Source of the DNA: a virus
Virus record (IMG/VR): IMGVR_UViG_3300043449_000409
Location: 1 to 33,076 of that record
Direction: 5' to 3' (one strand)
Length of the DNA stretch: 33,076 bases
Position numbers and translations under genes: made by a program
Part shown: piece by piece, positions 12,489 through 32,953 of the stretch
Numbering within the stretch: position 1 is the stretch's first letter
Layout of the letters: each line of letters begins with the position of its first letter
The notes under the pieces: model-generated
What the model saw: the letters and a program-made list of their open reading frames with translations, nothing else
What the model was told of the DNA's origin: nothing
The model's database searches: none

Positions 12489-15400
12489 GTGGCATCTCTT
12501 GAAGATATTCTTCGTAACGTACAGCAAGACAAAAGCGGATTCGCTTCCGACACCAGAACTAGCAGTGTTGTAACACGAAGCGACTGGCTTAAAAATGCTT
12601 TCAGTCAAAGCATGCAGCAGGGAGCAACCGTAAGTTCTCCACCCAAAGCCCCGCAACCCACAGGCTTAAAAGGTTTTGTCTTTGACGTACTGAACAACCC
12701 AATTGTTAAGCCGATTATCAACGCAGTTGATGTGCTTGCAATACCTGGGCGTGCAGTAACTTCTGGTTTGCAGGAGTTCATGGACGCTTACGATCAGAAC
12801 CCTAACACTCGTGCAACTTTCAGTGATTTCCGAAAGCAGGTTGATGATCCTACTTTTGGTTTCGGAAGAGTGATCGGTGATTACACTGGGAATAAATGGG
12901 TTGACCGTGTAATTGGTTTTGCTGGCGATGTCGTATTGGACCCGTTGACTTATCTTACTCTTGGTACTACTAAGGCTTTGACTAGCGGGCAAAGGCTTGC
13001 TAGACCTGTTTCTTCTGCCGAAGGAAGGTTTGCTCTTGCTAGCAAACTGTTTGAACTTGGAGCAGACCCAGAGGTAGTTAAAGCAGTTGCACGTCGTGGA
13101 CGTTCAGCAGTTAAGAACCCTGATCTTCTTGCTAAGGCTGGCTACAACAGGGCTGGCGTTTATTGGATGGGCAAGCGTATACCTGGCACTACTCGCGCTG
13201 GCGAGCGTGCCGAAGCAATGTTCACTGGTTTCAGAGTGTGGTCTGGTGACCATATCTTTAAGCGCGTTGGCGATTTGTTTACACCTCAGGACATGTTGAA
13301 TTTGCGACGACAGATTGCGCGTGGTGATGTCCCCACTGAAGACGTTAACGATTTTATTGGGATGATTCTTTCTCGCAATGAGGAGCGTGCAGTTGAGGCT
13401 GCTGCTGGACGGGAAGTTAAGGCTTTGCGACGCACTAATCTTGGTGGTGTGTCTGCCGAGGATATTGCTGTTTCTCGTGGTGAAGTGTACAAGTTGATGG
13501 AGAAACCTATTGTTGTTGATGAACAAATAATTTCTGGTGTTCCTACAACAAATCTTGGTCGCGCACAAGTGCGGTCTTCGAAAGCACAAAAAGCAGCAAG
13601 GGATTTATTGAAAGATAACCCTGATGCTTTGCGTGCATTAGGAGTAGTAGAAGAAGAACTCAGCGGCGTGTTGGGTCGTTCTGTAGGAGCAAATGTTTCA
13701 GATGCTGCTGCGTTAGCAGCATTGCGCGAAAATGATGAAGTTCGTTTGTCTTGGTACAATACTTTAACTGGAATATATGAAGACATTCTTAAGGGCGTTG
13801 ATCCAGAAGATGCTTTAAAAAATAATCTTTCAAAGTTAAATATTCCAGAAGACATAAGGTTGGCAATTCCAGAAAGAGTTAATACTTTAAGAAATCTTCC
13901 CGTGGATTATCAGGGACGGGTTGCTGTAAAACCAACCAGGCAACTTACACCAGAAGAATTTGATTCGATATATTCAAGATCTTCTCCAGGTAAAGTATTC
14001 GATGAGACAACTCCACATGGTCGTGTTGCGGCCGCCGTGTCGGCGCATTTTAAAGATATGCATGAGCGTATTCTTGCTGCTGGTAAGGCTGTTGACCCTG
14101 AGTTTTCTATTGGTGAGATAAGTAATTATGTTCCCCACATGCCGACTGATAAGGCTTGGCGTTGGATGGCAGATACAAATAATCCCGCTGCCACAACAGT
14201 AAAGGATACGTTATTTAATCCTTTTACTAACACTGGCTCCTATAAACATCGTATGGCTGAGGGTGACAAGATTGGTAGTTATGTTTTAACTCAGGCTGAC
14301 ATTAATGGTGGCATTGCTCGTCTAAATAATATCTACCGTCAAGAATTTAAAGTTAATTTTAATTTTTTCGAAACAGATCTTCCCACTATTTTAGATAAGT
14401 ATGACCGCATGTATGCGGGCATGATGGGAAAGATTGCACGCAAAAAGTATTTGGTTGATAGGGGAATCTATCAGCGTGTAGAGCCTCGGTTGATTGCTGA
14501 TCCTGAAATCAACAAGGTTGCTCAAAAGAAAATTAAGAGTGTTAATGATATGCGTTCCAAGGCTGCAAAGAATGCTGCCAAGAAAGTTGATGAATCCGCT
14601 GAATCAATCCGCAATATTTTTGATGCAGAAATTGGTAGGGTGCAAGCACAGATAGACGAGATTGGTAGACCCATCGGCAAGGCGTTGATGGACGAAGGTA
14701 ATCTTGTTTACGCTCAACAGAAGTTGGTGCGCGATCTGGCTTCTGCCAGGGCTGATTTGTATGAGGCACATAATGCTTTCCATAGAAATCTTGACGAGGC
14801 GGCTAGGACGCCGCTCGTTCAGGCTCTTGACCGACAGATGGGTTCTTTGCTTGAACGGTTGGATTCTCTTGCTGATGAAGTAAATCTTCTTGACTTTAAG
14901 GATGCTTCTATTAAGCAGAATCTTCAGCCTGTTCTTGACAGGTTAAAGACGTTAGGTAAGGACATTGAGAGGGCCGAGAAGGTAGAGGCTCGTATCATTA
15001 CTGTTGGGAACATCATGTCCGAGCACTTTGAGGCTATTCTTAATGGCACCGAAGTTGAAGGTGCCAAGGTTGTTGGTCGCAAGATGCGCAACAGTTATGG
15101 CGCTAAAGTCAAACCAGATGTCGCTGCTAAAAAAATGATTGATCGTGCAGTAGACCAGCCTTGGTGGAGAGAAATCCAAAGTGTTCTTCCAATTGCACCA
15201 AGCAAAGTTCAGCGTTATGCGCAACGTAAGAACATTAAGACCAAGTTGCAGGAACTTGCTCGTAGCGCTGGACAGCGTGGAGACTTTGGTGATACTTCTG
15301 CCTTGGAAGAGATGCGTGCAATGGGTGCAGCACTTGTGTCATGGATTGATACGATGCCTGACGATATCGCGCCACTCTTTGGAGAGTTGAAGGACGATCT

Positions 15401-18400
15401 TGTCGAAGCGATTGTTATGGCTGGTCGTAGTTCTGGATACTACAAGAAACTTGCTTCAAAGCGCGCAAAGTCTAGAGGCGTTATTACCGTACAGAATATT
15501 GTCGATAACTTTCGGGATGTTTCTAATGGGGTTACTGAAACTTTAGGTCAGTATTTTGCTGCACAGTCTTTGCGTAATAGGGTTTTCTCTGCTGTTGATC
15601 TTTCTACATCTGCAGACGAGTTGGTTCCTGGTTCCGTATTGGCAAGGATCATTGAAGATCCAGAGTTTAGTTCGTTGAGTCCATACCTTGAAAGGTATGT
15701 TGACGACACGGTTGAATCGGTTGACAGTTTTGATCAGATTCAGCAGTTGATGCAGCCTGGTGAGATGGGTAGCGCAAGACGCGCTGACAGTATTAGTTAT
15801 GGCGAGTTGGAGCAGATTCTTAATAGGGTTGTTAATGATTCTCAGACTAAGACTTTTGATTTGACTCTTCGTACTGGATCAGTGCTTGATAGCAAGTTGG
15901 ACATTCCATTTGATGTGGACAGGAACGGTGTTGTTCGCATTAATATATCCGAATACATTGCGCGTGCAGTTGAATTGGCTGGCGACGACAAGGTAACTCG
16001 CGAGATACTTGACGAAGTATACGACGATTTTTTTCTTGACGCATACAAACCCTGGTGGGAAAGTTTTAAACAGGTAACTGGTAGTCAACGTGGTCGTGTA
16101 GAGTTTGACCTATACCCAAGGTCGACACGAGTTGCTATAGGTGGGCGTGGTCAGCGTAGCCCTCTGCGTGAAGCAGAGCGACGCAAGGTTCAGACTGGTC
16201 AACAGTCGGCAGAGCAGGCTAAGCAAAATCTGCAGAAAAAGACAATGGAGTTGATGGCTGCAGTTGACGACGAGTTACGTCCAGGTGAGGTGCTCAGCGC
16301 CGAAGATGCATATGACAGACTCAACAATCTTCTTCTTCAAACATATTTTAAAACTGAGATTGAGTATCGGTTCTCGAGTTTGACTCGTCAAATGCTAACT
16401 GAAGGTCTTGTCCCCGATAAGGATCTATATCGTCTTGTTGTCAACACTGTAGCCAAGGAATTGTCTGATCATTCGATGGCTCAGGTTGCGTCGTATTCGT
16501 ATGCTACGTCAAAACTTGATGAGATTCTTGATGTGATTGATGGTGCTAGCGTCGAACGTTCAAGGCTTAGGGAGATCATTAAAGATCCTTATGTCGAAGC
16601 CATAGTTAAGATTGAGGCACAGAAACAGTTGGATGCTATTCCTTCTGCTGGCTATTGGCTTGGCAGGGAAGAAGAATTATACAACACTGTTGTCAAGATG
16701 CTTTCGGCTGAGGGCCGAAGCATGGAATTGGATTGGCGAACTGTTGTTGGTGAAGCAAATGGTATTCACCATGCGCATAGTTTGCATGCAGAGTTAAAGG
16801 CTTTGGGTGGCGCGCAGCAGCAATCTGGAGTTACAAATAGGCTTCGAAAGTTGCGTCAACAATATAAAGCGGCTACTGATTCTTTAGATCGTCAACGAAT
16901 CAAGCAGGACATTGATGCGATTGAAGCAAGCATGCCTGCTATTAAGAAGGCTAGACGAGAACTGTTGGAGAAGCGTTTGCGTCCTTGGTATAAGAAGAAC
17001 GTAGATCCTTCTAGTACTGCGCCAACTTTTATAGAAATTGAGTTAGCCCTCAAAGATAGAATCAAGATTAATAAGGCTGGCGGCCGACTTGAACCTACTG
17101 CAACTGTCAATGAGATCAGGACATGGGTTCAGGTTGCTGCTAAAAACATTAGCGAGAATAGCCGTCGTGCCAACAGGAACTTCCGTTGGACTTTGGCTGC
17201 TTCAGATCCTTTCCTTGATGTATCAAAGTTTGAACCTGGAATAAATAACCTTCAAGACTTGCCGTTGATTCACGCTGCTTCTCTTCGTTCCGCTGCTCAA
17301 CAGTTAGAAGATGACGCAGGAGAGTTGGCTTCTGCTCGTATGGCTGTCGACAGGACTATGCCTGTTGTTGAGTCTGCTGAGGAACAGGCTGCATTGGCTG
17401 AGCGTGAGTTGCGCGAGTTGACTCGTAAGGGTGGACGCATCAAGGGTCTTGTGCCTGATGAAGAAGTTGAGGTGATGCGTAGGGCCCGTCAGATCAGCGA
17501 CAGGATTGTTGAACTTAAGAACACCACCAACTATCTTGGTGCTGTTGAAAGATCTGAACTCAACGAACTCATCATGGAGATGGCTAAGTATTCAGTGCGT
17601 CAGGACTATCCTCTTGATTACATGCTTGATCCAGGTAGGATTGCGAGTGGTCTTATTGAAGATGGTGTTTTGGTTTTCCAAAAGAAGACATCTGCCGACC
17701 CTGACGAACTTCTTAAAATTAATGAGATTAAGAGTCAGATTAATGCGCTTGAGAAATCTCTAACTGCTCGCAAGGATGCTGCTGTTCGTTCAGTATCTGC
17801 TGTTGACGACAGAAAGAATGGTGTCACGCAACGTCAGATAAACGAGTTAAAAAGGCAGTTGGAAAAACTTACTGAGCGCAACCCTCTTGGTTCTGAAAAA
17901 TATAGGGAAGTGTTAGAGGCTTCATCTACCAAGAAGGGTGTTGTTTATTTTAGGTTCCGAGAGGGGTCTAGGTTTAGAACTGTTAATGATGTTGTTGAAC
18001 AGCAGAAGAGAATAGCGAAGGCTATTAAGAATGGCGACGAACAGTTAAAGAACTCTTTGCAAATTGAACTTGATAGGGCAATGGTTCCTATTGCTTCTCA
18101 GGAAAAGACGCTTACCTTAAACGGTCGTAGGCTCACCCTTAACGAGGATTTGTTTAGAGGTTTGTTTGATGACGTCAACGAAAGAATTGTTGACGTAACA
18201 GATGAAGGCGCAGTTCGACAGTTTACGCTTCAGCAGGTGGCGTTGCAACGGATGTCTGACATCCTGCAAGCCATTAAGGCTGGAGAGTTTTCTAAAGAAG
18301 ATTTCATTGACGCTTTGCGTCACACATCTTCTCGTAGGCAGAGCGAACTGTATCACACTTACCCCGAGGCGCACACTTCTCGTGTCGCTGCTCTTGAGGA

Positions 18401-21218
18401 GGCGTGGGGTAAGTCTGGTGATAAGAAAATCTTGGATGAGATTGGTGAGTTGGAGGCAGAGGAGTCTCTGACTCGTTATCGTGCTTTGCTTACTGATCGT
18501 GAGAAGGTTATTGATCAGGCACGCAGGTTGCGTGAGGAGTCTCGTCGTGTGACTGGTCAGGTTGGTGAGCGTGGCGCACCGTACGGCTACGAAAAATATA
18601 GTGCAGGCAAGTTCCAAACTTTCTATGCAGAGGAACTAGAAAAGATTAGAGTTGAAGAGTACGAGCGTCTTCTTCCCAAGTATGGCAAGTCTCGTGCAGC
18701 AGAGATGGCTGAGCAGGCGGCAAGGCGCAGGAAGAAAGAGGCTTCATACGCTGCGGCTCGACGTGCTGAGCGCATACCCAACGTAGAACCTACCGTTGGT
18801 TTAGAGGGCGCACAGTTCAGGTTCGATAGGTCGATGAAGAAAGTCAACGACATCTTCGACAATATCAAGCGCACTACGAACAATCAGTATGATCCTTATC
18901 AGAGGTTTATAGAGATTACTTCTGATGGTACTTCTATCTCTGATGCTATGCGCATCATCGTTAGAGAACTTGAGCAGGTACGACCTGACGATCAGACTTT
19001 TGTTAAGTTGGCGGAGTCTATTGAACCTGCTGTTGAGCGTGCTGAAGCGCTGCGAATGCAGTTGAGGTTCTTGGAGTCGAACATTCCAGACGAATTGTTT
19101 GCTCGGTATCTGTACGGTAGTAGTGGGTTGTCGGGTGATCTTGTGTTCCCTGTCACTGCTCATGAACGTCGTCTTGAGATGCAAGGACTTGGCGACACTC
19201 TCGCTAAGTTGGAGAAAGAACGTGTCAGCATGATGCGTTCTGCTTCACGAGAGCAACGCATGGTTGATGTTGGCGAACCTCCTCGTGGATCTGGTGGTCG
19301 TCGTGCCATTCTAGAAGGAGGCGATGGTGGACCTTCGCCTGTTGAGATGGTGCAGTCTGCTGTAGATAGTGGTGCTAAACGAAGTAAGGCTATGGATCCT
19401 TCGTTCAAGCAGGTTAGTGCTACGCTTAGAGAGTCTTCTAAGAAGGTGGCTCAACTTCAGAAAACTCTTGAAGGTATGTCTAGTCTGATTGATGATGCTG
19501 CGATCTTCCGTATGTCGACGCAAGATCAGTATGCTCGCGTTGTCCCTGAGTTGCGTGAACGATTAGATAACCTGATTGCTTCACGAGATAGGATTGCTCA
19601 GATTGTTGCAGGTAATCCTGCTGCAGAGCAGAAGTACTCTGAACTTCTGTTGTTCCAGGGTGAGGTTGAAGAACTTCTGAAAGAACTTGGAACAATCAAG
19701 AGCGGAGGTTCCGACCTTATTGTCAATGCTGACAGTGCTATCAACCCCCCTGGTTTCCCTCCTCTGCCTGGAACGGTAGTTGCTGACGGTACACCTAAAC
19801 TCACGAAAGAATACGAGAAGTATCTTCTCGTTAAAGCACAGTTCCTTAACGCATGGCACGAATACAACATTGTCGACAAGTTCCAGGCTGAAGCATTGTC
19901 CACCATGGAAGATCTTAAGGATCTTAAATGGGGAACGATGGTTGATGAGACGCTGAAGAAAGGTTGGACAACCCTTGAAGAGTTGGGTCTTCCTTCCTAT
20001 CAGGCGACGACACAACTGTTGGAGATCTCTAAGAACATGGAGCGAATGATCCAACCTGAGTTTGTGCGAGGGTTGAATAGGTTCATTGGTTCTTATACTG
20101 GTTTCGTCAAGTCGTATCTGACTGCTAGCCCTGGTTTTGTTGTGCGAAACACTATGGGTAACACGTTCATGCTTGTCGCCGCTGGTGCTGAACTTGAAAA
20201 TCTTTCTAAAGGTATCAAGTTGTATCGTGCTTGGATGGAATCAATAAAGGATGGTCTTGAACAGCAGTTTATAGATCGTCTTCCTCAGCGTGAGCGTGAC
20301 TTGTTTGAGCAGGCAGTCAGGGCATCTGATGCTTCTGGTTACGGTAAAGCACAGGACGCTGTTGCTGGTTGGCAGCCTAAGCGTCAGGTGTTGAAGGACA
20401 ACAAATACACTATGTTGTTCCGTAACATGAACAATGCTTCTGAGGGTTCGGCTCGCTTCATGCTCGCCTACGACTCTGTTGCCAAGGGCATGGACTTCAA
20501 CATGGCTACTGCCAGGGTCAAGAAGTATTTGTTTGACTATGTTGATGTCGGTTCCGCTGACGAGGCGTTGCGCACCATTGTTCCATTCTGGTTCTGGATG
20601 TCTCGCAACCTGCCCATGCAGATCGCTAACCGTTGGACTAACCCTCGAGCCTATTTGATGTACGACAAGTTGATGAAGAACTTGCGCAACAACGAAGATG
20701 ATCAGTACTTGCCTTCTTGGATGGTTACCTCTGGTGCTGTCAGGTTGACTGACGATCTATACTTGAACATGGATCTTGGTTTCAACAGGATTGATGAGGA
20801 ACTTCAGATGTTGGGTGACCCAGCGAAGTTGTTGGGCAAGTTGAACCCTGCGATCAAGGTTCCTGCTGAGGTTCTGTTCAACAAGAGGCTGGGCTACAAC
20901 AGCGATTTTGATGATGAAGGGGTGCAGGCTCCAGGCAGTCTGCTATCGCCTGCTGTACAGGCTTTGGCAAGCCTATTAGGGCAGTCTAGGGAGACCGAGA
21001 GTGGTGGCAGGGGTGTGAGTGAAAAGTTTAGTTACGCACTGCAAAGTATTCTTCCACCCTTGGCTCAAAGCGAACGCCTATTGCCTGCCACCGAGGGTGG
21101 CAAGGAACGTCAAGGTAACGCTTTGCTTGGTTACTTGGGTGTCCCTCTTCGTAATGTGTCGGAGGAGGACCGTCAACGTGAAATGTTGCGTCAACGCTAT
21201 CTGATGCAGAACCAATAG
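12489..21218 (+). CDS. Giant internal virion (ejection) protein
   Basis: A 2909-aa protein taking a quarter of the window and containing no cysteine. It starts at GTG 12489 with GGAAG upstream. Residues 60-160 have a hydrophobic region and the phrase GFAGDVVLDPLTYLTLG seen in long internal or polyvalent phage proteins. Around 545-551 a NYVPHMP motif is followed by GSYKHR and an LPTILDKYDRMYAGMM helix. From 690 to 2450 it is largely charged helix and coiled coil. The C-terminal 400 residues include SPGFVVRN (2547-2554) and VPFWFWMSRNLPMQ (2698-2711), resembling the phage large-polyvalent-protein domain LPD38. No lysozyme or protease motif was seen. It probably travels into the cell with DNA; it could instead act as a tape measure. 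Confidence 0.75.
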   Translation: MASLEDILRNVQQDKSGFASDTRTSSVVTRSDWLKNAFSQSMQQGATVSSPPKAPQPTGLKGFVFDVLNNPIVKPIINAVDVLAIPGRAVTSGLQEFMDAYDQNPNTRATFSDFRKQVDDPTFGFGRVIGDYTGNKWVDRVIGFAGDVVLDPLTYLTLGTTKALTSGQRLARPVSSAEGRFALASKLFELGADPEVVKAVARRGRSAVKNPDLLAKAGYNRAGVYWMGKRIPGTTRAGERAEAMFTGFRVWSGDHIFKRVGDLFTPQDMLNLRRQIARGDVPTEDVNDFIGMILSRNEERAVEAAAGREVKALRRTNLGGVSAEDIAVSRGEVYKLMEKPIVVDEQIISGVPTTNLGRAQVRSSKAQKAARDLLKDNPDALRALGVVEEELSGVLGRSVGANVSDAAALAALRENDEVRLSWYNTLTGIYEDILKGVDPEDALKNNLSKLNIPEDIRLAIPERVNTLRNLPVDYQGRVAVKPTRQLTPEEFDSIYSRSSPGKVFDETTPHGRVAAAVSAHFKDMHERILAAGKAVDPEFSIGEISNYVPHMPTDKAWRWMADTNNPAATTVKDTLFNPFTNTGSYKHRMAEGDKIGSYVLTQADINGGIARLNNIYRQEFKVNFNFFETDLPTILDKYDRMYAGMMGKIARKKYLVDRGIYQRVEPRLIADPEINKVAQKKIKSVNDMRSKAAKNAAKKVDESAESIRNIFDAEIGRVQAQIDEIGRPIGKALMDEGNLVYAQQKLVRDLASARADLYEAHNAFHRNLDEAARTPLVQALDRQMGSLLERLDSLADEVNLLDFKDASIKQNLQPVLDRLKTLGKDIERAEKVEARIITVGNIMSEHFEAILNGTEVEGAKVVGRKMRNSYGAKVKPDVAAKKMIDRAVDQPWWREIQSVLPIAPSKVQRYAQRKNIKTKLQELARSAGQRGDFGDTSALEEMRAMGAALVSWIDTMPDDIAPLFGELKDDLVEAIVMAGRSSGYYKKLASKRAKSRGVITVQNIVDNFRDVSNGVTETLGQYFAAQSLRNRVFSAVDLSTSADELVPGSVLARIIEDPEFSSLSPYLERYVDDTVESVDSFDQIQQLMQPGEMGSARRADSISYGELEQILNRVVNDSQTKTFDLTLRTGSVLDSKLDIPFDVDRNGVVRINISEYIARAVELAGDDKVTREILDEVYDDFFLDAYKPWWESFKQVTGSQRGRVEFDLYPRSTRVAIGGRGQRSPLREAERRKVQTGQQSAEQAKQNLQKKTMELMAAVDDELRPGEVLSAEDAYDRLNNLLLQTYFKTEIEYRFSSLTRQMLTEGLVPDKDLYRLVVNTVAKELSDHSMAQVASYSYATSKLDEILDVIDGASVERSRLREIIKDPYVEAIVKIEAQKQLDAIPSAGYWLGREEELYNTVVKMLSAEGRSMELDWRTVVGEANGIHHAHSLHAELKALGGAQQQSGVTNRLRKLRQQYKAATDSLDRQRIKQDIDAIEASMPAIKKARRELLEKRLRPWYKKNVDPSSTAPTFIEIELALKDRIKINKAGGRLEPTATVNEIRTWVQVAAKNISENSRRANRNFRWTLAASDPFLDVSKFEPGINNLQDLPLIHAASLRSAAQQLEDDAGELASARMAVDRTMPVVESAEEQAALAERELRELTRKGGRIKGLVPDEEVEVMRRARQISDRIVELKNTTNYLGAVERSELNELIMEMAKYSVRQDYPLDYMLDPGRIASGLIEDGVLVFQKKTSADPDELLKINEIKSQINALEKSLTARKDAAVRSVSAVDDRKNGVTQRQINELKRQLEKLTERNPLGSEKYREVLEASSTKKGVVYFRFREGSRFRTVNDVVEQQKRIAKAIKNGDEQLKNSLQIELDRAMVPIASQEKTLTLNGRRLTLNEDLFRGLFDDVNERIVDVTDEGAVRQFTLQQVALQRMSDILQAIKAGEFSKEDFIDALRHTSSRRQSELYHTYPEAHTSRVAALEEAWGKSGDKKILDEIGELEAEESLTRYRALLTDREKVIDQARRLREESRRVTGQVGERGAPYGYEKYSAGKFQTFYAEELEKIRVEEYERLLPKYGKSRAAEMAEQAARRRKKEASYAAARRAERIPNVEPTVGLEGAQFRFDRSMKKVNDIFDNIKRTTNNQYDPYQRFIEITSDGTSISDAMRIIVRELEQVRPDDQTFVKLAESIEPAVERAEALRMQLRFLESNIPDELFARYLYGSSGLSGDLVFPVTAHERRLEMQGLGDTLAKLEKERVSMMRSASREQRMVDVGEPPRGSGGRRAILEGGDGGPSPVEMVQSAVDSGAKRSKAMDPSFKQVSATLRESSKKVAQLQKTLEGMSSLIDDAAIFRMSTQDQYARVVPELRERLDNLIASRDRIAQIVAGNPAAEQKYSELLLFQGEVEELLKELGTIKSGGSDLIVNADSAINPPGFPPLPGTVVADGTPKLTKEYEKYLLVKAQFLNAWHEYNIVDKFQAEALSTMEDLKDLKWGTMVDETLKKGWTTLEELGLPSYQATTQLLEISKNMERMIQPEFVRGLNRFIGSYTGFVKSYLTASPGFVVRNTMGNTFMLVAAGAELENLSKGIKLYRAWMESIKDGLEQQFIDRLPQRERDLFEQAVRASDASGYGKAQDAVAGWQPKRQVLKDNKYTMLFRNMNNASEGSARFMLAYDSVAKGMDFNMATARVKKYLFDYVDVGSADEALRTIVPFWFWMSRNLPMQIANRWTNPRAYLMYDKLMKNLRNNEDDQYLPSWMVTSGAVRLTDDLYLNMDLGFNRIDEELQMLGDPAKLLGKLNPAIKVPAEVLFNKRLGYNSDFDDEGVQAPGSLLSPAVQALASLLGQSRETESGGRGVSEKFSYALQSILPPLAQSERLLPATEGGKERQGNALLGYLGVPLRNVSEEDRQREMLRQRYLMQNQ

Positions 21219-23318: not shown

Positions 23319-24086
23319 TTAAACTCCTTTAAGTTTAAGAGTAAAGACATTGTTGTCTAGCATTTGTGCAATCGTACTGTAACCAACAAGGTCACGCCAT
23401 GTATCCAGAACTGATTCGTTCTGTGGCTTAGCGCCACCTTCCATTAGTGTGACAAGTCTTGCGATCTTGTCGCATATCCTTATGCCTATACCAGTGGCAC
23501 CAAACATAAGAATGTTTTGGTGACCGTAGTCATGCTGCTTAGACACAAGCAGATCATGCATCTCTTGCACATCCCACATCTTGATGTGCTTGATATGAGA
23601 CAAGGCTTGCTCGCCTACTGACTTGAACAGGTCGATAGGTATACCTTCATACGCTCTAACCTTCTCACCAATCCGTGATTGGCATGCGAGCATGTACTCA
23701 ATGTTCGCCTGCTTAGGAGGAGATGACGAGTGCATCATTTCAAGTATCGCCAACGATGCATCTTCCCAATAATCAAACATCTTGTACCTCGCATTAATAT
23801 TGTGGTTGTTAATAAGTTTAACACTCAACTCTGACATTGCACGCTGAGTCAATCTCCAAGCATGAGGTTTACTTACACCAAGTTGCTTAGCGAGTTTGCT
23901 ATACGATGCTCGCTCATAGAAAACTGCCTCTATGCAAGTCCTTGACTTGTCGCTGAGTGATTCAACTGCATGCTGAACAGATTCTATATGTCCAGTACTG
24001 AAGTCGGATGGACCATCACCAAACTGTAGCATCCATTCCATTTCTGTTTCAGGTTTGGAAGCGAGGAAGTCTGGGTCAAGGGGCAT
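23319..24086 (-). CDS. Sigma-region-4-like HTH fused to DUF1599/Nmad1-like domain
   Basis: A 255-aa protein of two parts. Residues 36-92 read as sigma-70 region 4: VESLSDKSRTCIEAVF, then SYSKLAKQLGVSKPHAWRLT as the HTH. Residues 173-245 match the all-alpha DUF1599 (nucleotide-modification-associated domain 1) pattern: KQHDYG (183-188), GIGIRICDKIARL (199-211), ESVLDTWRDLVGY (224-236). DUF1599 is thought to act on nucleotides or modified DNA metabolism, though its activity is not settled. The ATG at 24086 is chosen because the frame further upstream duplicates the next gene. It overlaps that gene by 11 bases. Function may be regulation, nucleotide handling or both. Confidence 0.72.
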   Translation of the reverse strand: MPLDPDFLASKPETEMEWMLQFGDGPSDFSTGHIESVQHAVESLSDKSRTCIEAVFYERASYSKLAKQLGVSKPHAWRLTQRAMSELSVKLINNHNINARYKMFDYWEDASLAILEMMHSSSPPKQANIEYMLACQSRIGEKVRAYEGIPIDLFKSVGEQALSHIKHIKMWDVQEMHDLLVSKQHDYGHQNILMFGATGIGIRICDKIARLVTLMEGGAKPQNESVLDTWRDLVGYSTIAQMLDNNVFTLKLKGV

Positions 24087-24534
24087 GACGTTCTGCCTCT
24101 GTCGGAAACCAATCAATGTGCAAAGCATAGTAAGGTTTCTTATTGTCGACGAAACGCTCAAACGTACCATGGTTATTGCATGCCTTAATCCATTCAGATA
24201 ACGGTGCATCCCAATGTCTCTTCTTGCTCGAGTCATAGATCCACAACCTGACAGGACCAATACATTCCCATGTGCTGAGCGCTGCAGCCTTATCAAGTTT
24301 GAACTTGAGTGTGCTGTCACCACGAGATGCAACACCCATCACCTCATACATGCAGTGAGGAACCATGAAGTCTGGTGCGTAGCGCATGGCATCAGCCATG
24401 CCCCGCACATCAAAGTTAGGTCTGTTCAAACCGAAGCGGTGGGCGTACGGGTGGACAAGCAGGAACGCTTCCTCTGCTGTGTCACCCATGGTCGCATACC
24501 TCTTCGACCATTTGCTGTCACGGTAGGTGGTCAT
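24076..24534 (-). CDS. Possible PD-(D/E)XK-type nuclease
   Basis: A 152-aa protein. The core RYAPDFMV (51-58), YEVMGV (63-68) and FKLDKAAAL (78-86) has the order of a restriction-endonuclease fold: PD, then E-x-x on a strand, then Lys-rich helix. The usual E-x-K is E-V-M here, so the lysine is missing or supplied from elsewhere (K77 or K79). Lying directly after a RusA resolvase gene fits a DNA-processing role. It may be an inactive or non-nuclease member. ATGA overlap with the resolvase gene fixes the start. Confidence 0.5.
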   Translation of the reverse strand: MTTYRDSKWSKRYATMGDTAEEAFLLVHPYAHRFGLNRPNFDVRGMADAMRYAPDFMVPHCMYEVMGVASRGDSTLKFKLDKAAALSTWECIGPVRLWIYDSSKKRHWDAPLSEWIKACNNHGTFERFVDNKKPYYALHIDWFPTEAERHAP

Positions 24535-29540: not shown

Positions 29541-30443
29541 CTAGAACTCATCTTGATTGTATGTATTGCAGAAGCACTCAGCGAATGACTTCTCACAGTA
29601 CCAACAGTGACCACACTCGGGGCACATCTCCGCTTGATCAATGTCAAGATCGTAGATCTCCTCATGCTTGCAAGTAGAACAGATCCAAGATACAAGACTG
29701 TGATCCGCCTCCTCCGTAGATGGAACCCAACAACCGAACTCCTCATCCCACGCCATGTCGCCGTCATGTACTGAACGATACGACCACACATCATCATGCT
29801 CAAGGTCAATCTCCTTGGGGGTAGAGTACGAAGAGTACTTAGAGTACGATGCGTACGATGTGTACTTGGAGAAGTTGTTGTATGTGTAACCATACGACTT
29901 CTTGTATGAGTTGTTGGAATACCAAACACCATCAGCCCAATGACCAAGACTCTCGTTGACAATATACAACGACTGCTTGAGCAGGCTAGATGTATTAAGG
30001 AACGCAAGTTTAGAACCACCCGCAAACTGTGATAGTTCTGACATGCCCTCGTCAGTGTCAAGCAACTCGCCAAGGTCAAACTCAGGCAACCAATCCTCCG
30101 CAAAGATACGGGTATCAGACTTGCCATCCTCCTCCTTGATGGGAAGCATACCGTTGTGACCCATGACAACATCGTCGTTGACACGGAACGGATGACAGTT
30201 ATCAATGTTGGTATCACCATGCGTAGTGATACGCAGATGGAAGATAGAGTCACCCTCAGGGAACTCATCACGCACCATACAATAACTCTTGATGGTGTCA
30301 TTGATATCCATGGAACGATAAGAATAAATCTTACCGTCACCAATCACTGCAAAGCCGAACCCGTCAGGGTTCTGTATCGCAGCACGACGCAACGCCTTCT
30401 TAGATGGGCGTGCTCTACCTGTAGTTGCAATTAATAAACACAT
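29541..30443 (-). CDS. Class II glutamine amidotransferase-like protein with zinc ribbon
   Basis: A 300-aa protein. Residues 1-165 resemble an N-terminal-nucleophile glutaminase: C2 exposed once Met1 is removed, NPDGFGFAV (25-33), HLRITTHG (69-76), CHPF (83-86), GHNGML (95-100) and SDTR (109-112). Such domains release ammonia from glutamine for a partner enzyme. Residues 175-208 are a Tyr/Ser/Asn/Lys-rich linker. The C-terminus has eight Cys (C255, C258, C274, C277, C280, C283, C290, C292), enough for two zinc sites. It follows the amidoligase-like gene, which is the likely acceptor of its ammonia. A palindromic site lies 43 bases before its ATG (30443; CAGGAAG upstream). Confidence 0.8.
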   Translation of the reverse strand: MCLLIATTGRARPSKKALRRAAIQNPDGFGFAVIGDGKIYSYRSMDINDTIKSYCMVRDEFPEGDSIFHLRITTHGDTNIDNCHPFRVNDDVVMGHNGMLPIKEEDGKSDTRIFAEDWLPEFDLGELLDTDEGMSELSQFAGGSKLAFLNTSSLLKQSLYIVNESLGHWADGVWYSNNSYKKSYGYTYNNFSKYTSYASYSKYSSYSTPKEIDLEHDDVWSYRSVHDGDMAWDEEFGCWVPSTEEADHSLVSWICSTCKHEEIYDLDIDQAEMCPECGHCWYCEKSFAECFCNTYNQDEF

Positions 30444-30485
30444 GATGTTACTTCCTGTTCTTGTTTGATTGTTGATTTGATTTGA

Positions 30486-30501
30486 ATATACAACTGTATA
30501 T
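30486..30501 (-). promoter_or_regulatory. Palindromic operator, copy 1
   Basis: ATATACA-AC-TGTATAT: two perfect 7-bp arms around a 2-base centre, 43-58 bases before the amidotransferase ATG. It touches the stop codon of the amidoligase-like gene. It matches copies 2-4. A role as repressor/activator site or promoter core is inferred; no clear -35 box was found. Confidence 0.72.
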
Positions 30502-31835
30502 CACGCACCACGCCGATCAAGCGTGGTAGTGAGGAACTCATATGGCTGGTTGTTAACCCACGACCTGAAGTTAGACCATGCGAAACCGTTCTCACGATAC
30601 GACTTGCTATCGTGGTCACGAGTGTAAGTCCAGATGGCATGAACCATCTCAAGTACAGCAAGCACAGTCTCAGGAAGCAGGCTGCCTCTAAAGTAACGCA
30701 ACTCAACGGTGTTATGAGGAACAAAGTTGAGAGCATGATACCTAGCAAGGCTGGCATGATGATATGTACCCTTGGCAAGGTCACTCAACTTGACAGGATT
30801 ACCATACTGAGATGATGTCCTATCAAACGAAGCCCACCTACCACTGTCACGACCAGCAAACTTCTTCAGCCAAGTCGCATTGTTGTAATGGAACATCTGG
30901 AACTTATGAAGATGCGAGTGACTGAACGAAGCCTTACTCACATGAACATGAAGACCAGCACCAGTACCATCAACTGAACGCCAAGACTGCAAGCCCCTGT
31001 CAGTCAGACCCTTGATCGCCTGCCTAGGGAACAACAACTTGTGTGCCTCAAGCGTGGCAGGGTGAGTAACAATCTCAAAGCCTGAGATAGAAGCATCCTC
31101 CTTGAGATACAAGTAGTTGCCATCGCAACCTGACTCACTCACCAGATACTCAGCGGCATCACGCAAGGAACTCCTATCGCCCGTGTTGTTAGTCTCCAAC
31201 TCAAAGCCCATGAACAGATCACGACCATGCTTGACAACATCAGGATATGTGTACCTGTTGTTCGCATAGTAGTCAAGATCTGGCAACGCCTTAATGCCAG
31301 AGAAATCAACACTCAAATGTGAGTGCTCCTCACTATCCGAAGGAACAAACCAAAACAAACGAGGCGACGGGTTCCAACTGTAATTGTGAACCAGATTTGA
31401 TTCCATCTCCTCTTGATGACTGTCATGGCAACTCTCACAAAGATGACTGTCGTAATAGTCACCCTCATCTTGATAGATGGTGTCATCACTGTGACGCACC
31501 TCATTGCACGAGGCACAAGTTACATAGTCATCGTAACAATACGAACACACAGTCCTGTTACTCCAACCACCAACATAGATATTGATAGTGCTATCACAAT
31601 AAGCAGCACTATCGCAATCCTCACAGTATGTGAAGCAATCAACACAGTAAATCAGTGTTGAGTAATCTCTGTCACGATTAACTCTTCTTGCTAACACTTG
31701 ACCATCACCAGCGATGCGACCAGTAATATGCTCGTCATCTTCAAGGTTGATGTCATTATCGCAAGACCAACAGACTCTAGTCTCTGGCTCCTGCTCCTCA
31801 CCATCATCGGCGCTATCATTTACATTTGTATTCAT
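30501..31835 (-). CDS. Amidoligase-like enzyme with Cys-rich zinc module
   Basis: A 444-aa protein. Residues 20-140 hold a zinc-finger array with CxxC at 22/25, 64/67, 71/74, 97/100, 107/110 and 133/136, plus C80. Residues 205-400 match the putative amidoligase family (glutamine-synthetase-like fold): MGFELET (E212, E214), KEDASISGFEIVTHPAT (E246, E254), GLHVHVS (H296, H298) and TVELRYFRGSL (E378, R380). Such enzymes use ATP to join a carboxylate to an amine. ATG 31835 is chosen because AAAGG lies 7-11 bases upstream; the longer frame to 31997 would read through the operator. Its substrate is unknown. A glutaminase-like gene follows. Confidence 0.8.
   Translation of the reverse strand: MNTNVNDSADDGEEQEPETRVCWSCDNDINLEDDEHITGRIAGDGQVLARRVNRDRDYSTLIYCVDCFTYCEDCDSAAYCDSTINIYVGGWSNRTVCSYCYDDYVTCASCNEVRHSDDTIYQDEGDYYDSHLCESCHDSHQEEMESNLVHNYSWNPSPRLFWFVPSDSEEHSHLSVDFSGIKALPDLDYYANNRYTYPDVVKHGRDLFMGFELETNNTGDRSSLRDAAEYLVSESGCDGNYLYLKEDASISGFEIVTHPATLEAHKLLFPRQAIKGLTDRGLQSWRSVDGTGAGLHVHVSKASFSHSHLHKFQMFHYNNATWLKKFAGRDSGRWASFDRTSSQYGNPVKLSDLAKGTYHHASLARYHALNFVPHNTVELRYFRGSLLPETVLAVLEMVHAIWTYTRDHDSKSYRENGFAWSNFRSWVNNQPYEFLTTTLDRRGA
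30507..30527 (-). other. Hairpin at the 3' end of the amidoligase-like gene
   Basis: ACCACGC (30507-30513) and GCGTGGT (30521-30527) form a perfect 7-bp stem with a 7-base loop, extendable by TCAC/GTGA. It covers the last codons of the gene and precedes operator copy 1. No T-run follows, so termination is uncertain. Confidence 0.45.
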
Positions 31836-31860: not shown

Positions 31861-31876
31861 ATATACATTTGTATAT
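31861..31876 (-). promoter_or_regulatory. Palindromic operator, copy 2
   Basis: ATATACA-TT-TGTATAT on the + strand, flanked so that an 18-bp perfect palindrome is formed. It lies 26-41 bases before the amidoligase-like ATG. The surrounding control region (31840-31890) shares two more blocks with copy 3: AGACAGGTACA upstream and ATGAAAGGTAA, carrying the ribosome site, downstream (all on the - strand). Confidence 0.78.
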
Positions 31877-31942: not shown

Positions 31943-32197
31943 TCATATATCTGAACGAACCTCCTCTCTTAGAAAGAAATGACCCAACGTCTGCCAACGC
32001 TCAGTCAACAACACAGACTGATACCTGTATGCGACGACATTGATCTGAACACGGCGACCCTTCAGCCACACCTCAGAGACATTGACATCAATATCAAGGT
32101 CACCGAACCAATAGTCACCACTGCTATCATACTCCTGAATAGCACGCACAAGCAGAGACTTGGCACGATCATCAGACATCAAGCGTGTCTCAGGCAT
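31943..32197 (-). CDS. Unknown 84-aa protein
   Basis: A protein with a helical N-terminal third (SDDRAKSLLVRAIQEYD) and a beta-rich rest (DLDIDVNVSEVWLKGRRVQINVVAYRY). I place the start at ATG 32197, which overlaps the stop of the 55-aa gene by 8 bases and has GGTGGTGAA upstream. It is co-transcribed with that gene and ends 107 bases before the amidoligase-like gene. No family recognised. Confidence 0.65.
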   Translation of the reverse strand: MPETRLMSDDRAKSLLVRAIQEYDSSGDYWFGDLDIDVNVSEVWLKGRRVQINVVAYRYQSVLLTERWQTLGHFFLREEVRSDI

Positions 32198-32357
32198 CTT
32201 CACCACCTAACAACTCAGCAATACGAGCACGCACCTCAACAGTCTTAGCACGCACCTCATCAGTACGAGCACGCAACTGTGCAATCTCCAAACGCAACTC
32301 CAAGTTGCGCTGTAAAGCCTGAACAAAAACCTCAGGCGTGAACTCATCATTCTTCAT
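32190..32357 (-). CDS. 55-aa coiled-coil protein
   Basis: A short gene found by reading the strand directly: ATG 32357 (MKNDEFTPEVFVQALQRN) to TGA 32190. Residues 14-49 are one charged helix with a seven-residue repeat (VRARTDE-type: ARTDEVRAKTVEVRARIAEL), encoded by three 21-base DNA repeats. Such a heptad helix should form a coiled coil, perhaps a dimer or trimer. GAAAGG lies about 10 bases upstream and operator copy 3 26-41 bases upstream. No family recognised. Confidence 0.68.
   Translation of the reverse strand: MKNDEFTPEVFVQALQRNLELRLEIAQLRARTDEVRAKTVEVRARIAELLGGEDA
32226..32275. repeat. 21-bp periodic repeat in the 55-aa gene
   Basis: AGCACGCA recurs at 32226, 32247 and 32268, exactly 21 bases apart, inside similar 21-base units. 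Each unit encodes one heptad of the coiled coil, showing growth by in-frame duplication. Confidence 0.8.
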
Positions 32358-32382: not shown

Positions 32383-32398
32383 ATATACATTTGTATAT
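32383..32398 (-). promoter_or_regulatory. Palindromic operator, copy 3
   Basis: ATATACA-TT-TGTATAT, identical to copy 2 in its 16-bp core, 26-41 bases before the ATG of the 55-aa gene. The region 32363-32414 repeats the three-block layout of copy 2: AGACAGGTACA, palindrome, then ATGAAAGGTAA. Confidence 0.78.
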
Positions 32399-32466: not shown

Positions 32467-32907
32467 TCAGAGCGTCTTGCTCAACTCTGCAATCAGACGG
32501 ATACGGCTCTCCTTGCTGAGGTGCTTAGCCTGGCTGAACACATCGTCATAGGCGGAACGCTTAGCAGGCTTGACACTGTTGCCCTGCTTAGGGTTCTTAG
32601 TCTTGCGTAGGTGGAACATACTCTTGACAGGAGTATTCGTGCCATCTCGCACGACACCCTTAGTCATCTTCCAACCTTGCTTCATCGCCCATTGGATATG
32701 ACCGATGTTCTGTGCTATTGACGCTGCTGCATAATCTTGTGCAACTGCACCTGCAAGTTCACTGTACTGCTTGACAGTGAACCCGTCATTCTTCTTAGCG
32801 ATGGACAAGTAGTCCGTTGCTACATTCCACCATCCTGCAAGTTCTGCTTGCGAACCTTTCAGAATGTCTTTCTCAAACGAGAGATAGTTGATAGTGATCT
32901 TGCTCAT
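32467..32907 (-). CDS. Unknown 146-aa basic protein
   Basis: Mostly helical in the first 80 residues (ELAGWWNVATDYLSIAKK, then QYSELAGAVAQDYAAASIAQN), with a basic Lys-rich linker (KTKNPKQGNSVKPAKRS) and a short C-terminal helix (SKESRIRLIAELSKTL). ATG 32907 follows AAGGAG at good spacing. The same frame is open to an ATG at 32964, which follows an even better AAAGGAGGTGA, giving 165 aa and putting operator copy 4 inside the coding region. No family recognised; a DNA-binding regulator is one possibility. Confidence 0.65.
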   Translation of the reverse strand: MSKITINYLSFEKDILKGSQAELAGWWNVATDYLSIAKKNDGFTVKQYSELAGAVAQDYAAASIAQNIGHIQWAMKQGWKMTKGVVRDGTNTPVKSMFHLRKTKNPKQGNSVKPAKRSAYDDVFSQAKHLSKESRIRLIAELSKTL

Positions 32908-32937: not shown

Positions 32938-32953
32938 ATATACGTTTGTATAT
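32938..32953 (-). promoter_or_regulatory. Palindromic operator, copy 4
   Basis: ATATACG-TT-TGTATAT: the same palindrome with one arm base changed. It lies 31-46 bases before ATG 32907, and 8 bases downstream of the alternative ATG at 32961. Confidence 0.7.

Follow-up and report, generated by a model that had tools for sequence, protein, structure and literature searches.

A GS-fold amidoligase (ALIG) and a class II glutamine amidotransferase (GAT), encoded by adjacent genes of a 33,076-base phage sequence (the window, an entire IMG/VR virus record, IMGVR_UViG_3300043449_000409), probably work together as a two-part amidoligase that depends on glutamine, as judged from conserved residues and structure models. 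The pair is real and well supported, and it is set apart by its conserved zinc-type modules and its reduced cassette. Phage amidoligase-GATase pairs have been annotated for more than a decade, with functions that were only hypothesised; being near-obligate, composed of two genes and equipped with conserved zinc-type modules, the present pair is a minimal system open to direct testing.

The left side of the record carries tailed-phage terminase and portal genes, and its right side a leftward early region with a DnaB-type helicase, an AEP primase, a PD-(D/E)XK nuclease and a WhiB-type regulator. The host of the phage is accordingly likely an actinobacterium. ALIG and GAT sit in this early replication/WhiB region, and envelope genes are not adjacent to them. 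Elsewhere in the record, the largest gene is a 2909-aa open frame (12489-21218, plus strand), and the N-terminal half of a 338-aa ORF (23319-24335, minus strand) carries sigma-70 region 4, with a weak match to DUF1599 (nucleotide modification associated) close to the C-terminus of the ORF.

ALIG (444 aa; 30501..31835, minus strand) matched Pfam Amidoligase_2 (PF12224) with an E value of 4e-4 and 20.8 bits, slightly below the cut-off of 22, as well as PHROG 22302 (1.7e-24) and PHROG 2443 "amidoligase" (3e-9). Amidoligase_2 was matched by 72 of 74 ALIG family members (E<=0.01; best 1.2e-11). The catalytic core covers residues 205-442 (30510..31223, minus strand), and G210, E212, E214, K245, D247, G252, E254, H296, H298, R329, R365, N370, E378 and R380 are invariant in all 74 relatives. 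The motifs ExE, DGS..GxE, GxHxH and ExRxF mirror the GS motifs for metal and ATP, and are presumably the equivalents of GS E129/E131, E212/E220, H269/H271 and E357/R359. Among the catalytic landmarks proposed in the first-pass annotation, E212/E214, E254, H296/H298 and E378/R380 thus stand, whereas E246 is variable (Glu in 31/74) and the conserved acid is D247. The AlphaFold (AF2) model, built from the window protein and its IMG/VR relatives, had a mean pLDDT of 81. Foldseek placed YbdK first (1.4e-5), followed by glutamine synthetase (9e-5), with a probability of 1.00 and TM-scores of only about 0.3; PafA and Dop were weaker matches (E 0.006-0.03). Because the TM-scores of both ALIG and GAT are modest (0.3-0.5), their structural matches are best taken as fold-level likenesses and not as close relatives. 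Family, invariant residues, model and Foldseek matches are concordant with the original call: for fold and residues, ALIG is a GS-fold amidoligase with intact catalytic residues, and ATP-dependent ligation is predicted.

GAT (300 aa; 29541..30443, minus strand) matched PHROG 25883 (7.5e-24) and Pfam GATase_4 (E=3e-4; 20.1 bits, slightly below the cut-off of 23), the latter being matched by 53 of 56 family members (E<=0.01). Its Ntn-hydrolase core, residues 1-180 (29904..30443, minus strand), contains the class II glutaminase landmarks C2, N25PDGFG30, H69LRITTHG76 and G95HNG98, on which the first-pass annotation had based its assignment. C2, N25, G28, G30, H69, R71, T74-H75-G76, H96-N97-G98 and D110 are invariant in 56/56 sequences, including the nucleophile Cys2, which is N-terminal once Met is removed. 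The AlphaFold model (window protein and IMG/VR relatives) had a mean pLDDT of 83, and about 98 in the core, and Foldseek gave GlmS as the best match (E=4e-8), with EgtC and PurF also found. The two cores, GS-like and Ntn, whose absence was to count against the assignment, are therefore both recovered by AlphaFold and Foldseek, and the coordinates, strand and lengths first given for the two genes were confirmed. For fold and residues GAT is a class II (Ntn) glutamine amidotransferase, with predicted glutaminase activity. It is improbable that GAT, instead of donating ammonia, acts as a thiol amidase or peptidase on the ALIG product, to remove or trim it. EgtC, a hydrolase, is among its structural matches, and a published account of the larger cassette groups the glutamine amidotransferase with degradation genes; but the residues of the class II glutamine site (R71, T74-H75-G76, N97-G98, D110) are invariant and GlmS is the best structural match.

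The distribution of the two genes agrees with a joint function. Single-sequence searches of IMG/VR found almost nothing and profiles were required; these detected 451 relatives of GAT and no fewer than 570 of ALIG, of which the best 80 of each were taken, so that the locus set is biased to near relatives. Both genes were found in 123 non-redundant viral loci, and in 123/123 ALIG lies immediately before GAT on one strand, at a distance of -55 to 185 nt (median 10). Five loci had a single call: L052, L096 and L152 end near the contig end, L006 (a Bifidobacterium phage) has ALIG spread across two frames directly upstream of GAT, and L140 has a lone LIM-bearing ALIG. The pairing is near-obligate in this large phage group; homologues in which the two genes almost never occur together had been named beforehand as the outcome contrary to the proposal, and the count is 123 loci with the pair against 5 without a partner call. 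Among more distant phage records, 6 of 7 (L006, L221-L226) have the pair, the exception being Clostridioides phage AR1086-1. A Christensenellales phage has three small genes between ALIG and GAT, and in phage ctfjg026 (L223) the upstream ALIG was recognised by motifs only. The distances of ALIG and GAT are correlated (Spearman 0.59-0.60, reached by 0/200 permutations), a pattern to be expected from close linkage of any two genes. In L006 (Bifidobacterium phage BP677P8; 1800-3550), deposited gene 42 is only the C-terminal part of the two-frame ALIG. In L029, L071, L103, L105, L109 and L121 the pair is preceded upstream by another ALIG-like gene, 205-271 aa long and devoid of the zinc module.

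Outside the viral records, the pair was found at 38 actinobacterial loci, mostly of Nocardia, and often as two tandem ALIG-GAT pairs that have diverged by about 50%. The carriers are genomes or plasmids of Nocardia, Actinoplanes, Amycolatopsis and Mycobacterium. The neighbours of these pairs include integrase, DUF2637, DUF4192 and Prim-Pol primase genes, which suggests that the bacterial pairs sit in integrated mobile elements. Loci L166-L199, which are mostly Nocardia genomes, show ALIG-GAT-ALIG-GAT arrays, with a third ALIG in some. The pair is also present in phages of non-actinobacteria.

As had been noticed at the outset, both proteins bear zinc-type Cys modules at opposite ends. Those of ALIG are LIM-like and N-terminal (residues 22-136, C22-C136; 31428..31772, minus strand), and that of GAT is C-terminal (residues 255-292, C255-C292; 29568..29681, minus strand), with the pattern CxxC-x15-CxxCxxCxxC-x6-CxC. 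Each of C255, C258, C274, C277, C280, C283, C290 and C292 is present in at least 55 of 56 GAT sequences, and the tail probably holds two sites, with zinc as the presumed metal. Of the several Cys pairs in ALIG, those of the last site, C107/C110/C133/C136, recur in 69-74 of 74 sequences, and the earlier sites are variable. With its N-terminal part the ALIG family profile matched LIM domains whose structures have been solved, at a best E of 9e-4, and Pfam LIM was matched by three family members. The zinc tail is absent from the GATs of MEP402, ctgrD200 and the Acinetobacter, Christensenellales and Bifidobacterium phages; the ALIGs of MEP402, ctgrD200 and the Acinetobacter and Bifidobacterium phages nevertheless retain Cys pairs. 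The tail is therefore dispensable for the pairing, and is a mark of the branch made up of actinophages and actinobacteria, along with a few others. For the same reason the docking of the zinc modules on each other, which the first-pass annotation had put forward as one of their possible uses, does not hold as a general rule.

Amidoligase-GATase pairing has already been published for Marvin, for the OM43 phages and for the cassettes of phiEco32, LUZ24 and RIO-1. Marvin gp105/gp106 and the Mycobacterium plasmid homologues (about 29-33% identity) are like the window in gene order, in both enzymes and in the Cys pairs of both; the ALIG of Marvin differs from that of the window in its smaller number of Cys pairs and in a long extension at its C-terminus. 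In the OM43 phages MEP401/MEP402 (PMC10580990), the amidoligase is likewise followed directly by the GATase, but GAT has no zinc tail, and ALIG has a longer N-terminus and fewer Cys pairs. The "peptidoglycan modification cassette" of phiEco32, LUZ24 and RIO-1 shares with the window an Amidoligase_2-type ligase and a class II GATase among early genes, and contains an ATP-grasp ligase, a second amidoligase and a gamma-glutamyl cyclotransferase besides the pair (PMC5498523, PMC3890496). Neither an ATP-grasp ligase nor a match to the gamma-glutamyl cyclotransferase family PF06094 was found in the window or in 22 records of related actinophages (several reach 39-40 kb, and the records may be incomplete); companion genes of either kind were thus rejected. 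An ATP-grasp gene was seen only in L002. The window holds a single ALIG and no second amidoligase, so that its cassette appears to be reduced to two genes. In phage ctfjg026, a distant relative, one protein (L223:4001-5218) combines GAT with two Cys pairs and a gamma-glutamylamine cyclotransferase domain, and in an Arthrobacter phage of cluster AL an AIG2-like cyclotransferase lies beside an amidoligase. This fusion and this neighbourhood point to gamma-glutamyl chemistry.

Two small genes upstream of ALIG, at 32190..32357 (55 aa, minus strand) and 31943..32206 (minus strand; 87 aa from a GTG start or 84 aa from an internal ATG), had been proposed as substrates or partners. This proposal was abandoned, as no homologue of either gene was found among 164 related loci. 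In the 55-aa gene, 21-nt tandem repeats (32211-32294) encode a heptad-like repeat.

From fold, residues and context, we infer the reaction, the transfer of ammonia between the two proteins, the target and the role. GAT, with its Ntn fold and Cys2, would hydrolyse glutamine to ammonia, while ALIG, with its GS fold, would use ATP to activate a carboxylate, most likely the glutamate-type side chain of a peptide, as an acyl phosphate; an amide would result when ammonia captures this intermediate. Recruitment of a large target, peptide or protein, is the most likely task of the LIM-like zinc domain. This two-enzyme mechanism is held to be somewhat likelier than not. In its likeliest role, the pair would act early in infection on a host surface or on a precursor peptide of the cell wall, and the modification would impede the entry of competing phages or conjugative elements; the presence of the pair in phages and in mobile elements of related bacteria fits such exclusion. 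The early setting of the genes, with no envelope genes beside them, and the Pfam scores just under the cut-offs count against the explanation. As a whole, this explanation (two-enzyme amidation, LIM recruitment, exclusion at the surface or wall) comes close to an even chance without reaching it; the wall or surface as target, taken separately, is a tentative assignment well under an even chance. Wall modification against superinfection is a published hypothesis for fuller related cassettes (PMC5498523, PMC3890496, PMC10580990). A possible working analogue is MurT/GatD, a two-gene system for glutamine-dependent amidation of the glutamate of peptidoglycan peptides (PMC3267633). No homology is involved, since GatD is a class I enzyme (not Ntn) and MurT a Mur-ligase relative, whereas GAT is Ntn class II and ALIG has a GS fold. 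No biochemical assay of a pair like that of the window was found in the accessible literature.

For the zinc modules, a protein or a nucleic acid would be no less fitting a target than a wall precursor, and because of them a protein target is nearly as likely as the wall, though unlikely in itself. Amidation or an isopeptide bond would then be the means by which the pair modifies a host or phage protein, for example one that serves transcription, replication or defence, with the zinc domains as target readers. The LIM-like module in nearly all ALIGs, the early-gene setting beside primase, helicase and WhiB, and the protein ligase PafA, with Dop, among the GS-fold structural neighbours argue for it. 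However, no candidate target emerged, the similarity to PafA/Dop is weak and explained by the common fold, and pairs occur in phages of non-actinobacteria too. A Pup-related role, considered for the PafA/Dop likeness and the likely actinobacterial hosts, was rejected, the shared fold being the sole evidence for it. The best structural match of ALIG, YbdK, joins carboxylates to amines on small molecules, which would agree with a pair whose product is a small metabolite, such as an amino-acid amide or a dipeptide, and which leaves polymers unmodified. A secondary-metabolite role was also suggested for Marvin, as cited in PMC10580990. Conserved zinc modules would nevertheless be unusual for a small-molecule ligase, and the commonest neighbour families of the viral pairs look like phage replication and packaging genes and unlike a biosynthetic cluster, so that this product is very improbable.

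The expression of the pair may be controlled through a repeated palindrome. In the window, ATATACAAAYGTATAT is found upstream of ALIG, GAT and two more genes, in agreement with the first-pass annotation, which had reported it ahead of both enzymes. The copies are ATATACAGTTGTATAT between ALIG and GAT (30486..30501), ATATACAAATGTATAT upstream of ALIG (31861..31876) and again upstream of the 55-aa gene (32383..32398), and ATATACAAACGTATAT upstream of the gene at 32467, the first of the cluster (32938..32953). When up to 3 mismatches were allowed on both strands, 9 matches were obtained, against 0.22 expected by chance. The exact 16-mer of the window gave a single match per contig among the IMG/VR matches listed, and is not diagnostic. 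Most related phages have a palindrome of their own, with arms of 7-12 bp and 3-11 copies, often ahead of early genes (for example L012, L023, L031, L048, L064, L068, L070, L073 and L086). At least 3 copies of one 7-bp-armed palindrome were present in 112/161 related loci (some redundant) and in 55/60 loci preselected for repeats, whereas none of 180 dinucleotide shuffles had more than two. With thresholds of at least 3 copies and arms of at least 7 bp, the related loci contain about 70 distinct sequences in 357 copies, 182 of which lie outside called ORFs (41 expected). A copy is found just ahead of ALIG in 62/68 cases (10 expected) and just ahead of GAT in 26/68 (5 expected).

RNA hairpins are disfavoured, as the flanking pairs have no excess of sense-strand G-U (244 versus 328 antisense), and in most phages the palindromes are therefore likelier to be DNA dyads; no Rfam family was assigned to the palindrome regions at Rfam thresholds. 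Since nearly every phage has a different repeated dyad, a rapidly diverging trans-acting dimeric regulator would be implied, a putative immunity-like operator code. The closest description found is that of the cluster O mycobacteriophages, whose 17-bp palindrome, of unknown function, is similarly phage-specific and repeated between genes (PMC4351075). Cluster O has one sequence in more than 30 copies per genome, whereas the present set has about 70 sequences, each in 3-11 copies, in the vicinity of early genes, ALIG among them. If confirmed as operators, the palindromes would amount to a rich natural collection of variants on a single regulatory code. Two readings, that of a glutamine-driven, zinc-guided machine for protein or wall amidation and that of a palindrome-marked regulon to which the pair belongs, are put forward tentatively, at somewhat below an even chance. 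Such a machine may be common to actinophages and actinobacterial mobile elements, each half having its own reader module. In L064, L068 and L086 some palindrome copies extend into long stems. Further strong stem-loops directly follow the palindrome at L012:3350-3470 and L012:4570-4690, and one L012 stem-loop, in which a 7-bp stem closes a TTCGCAA loop, recalls a tRNA T-arm.
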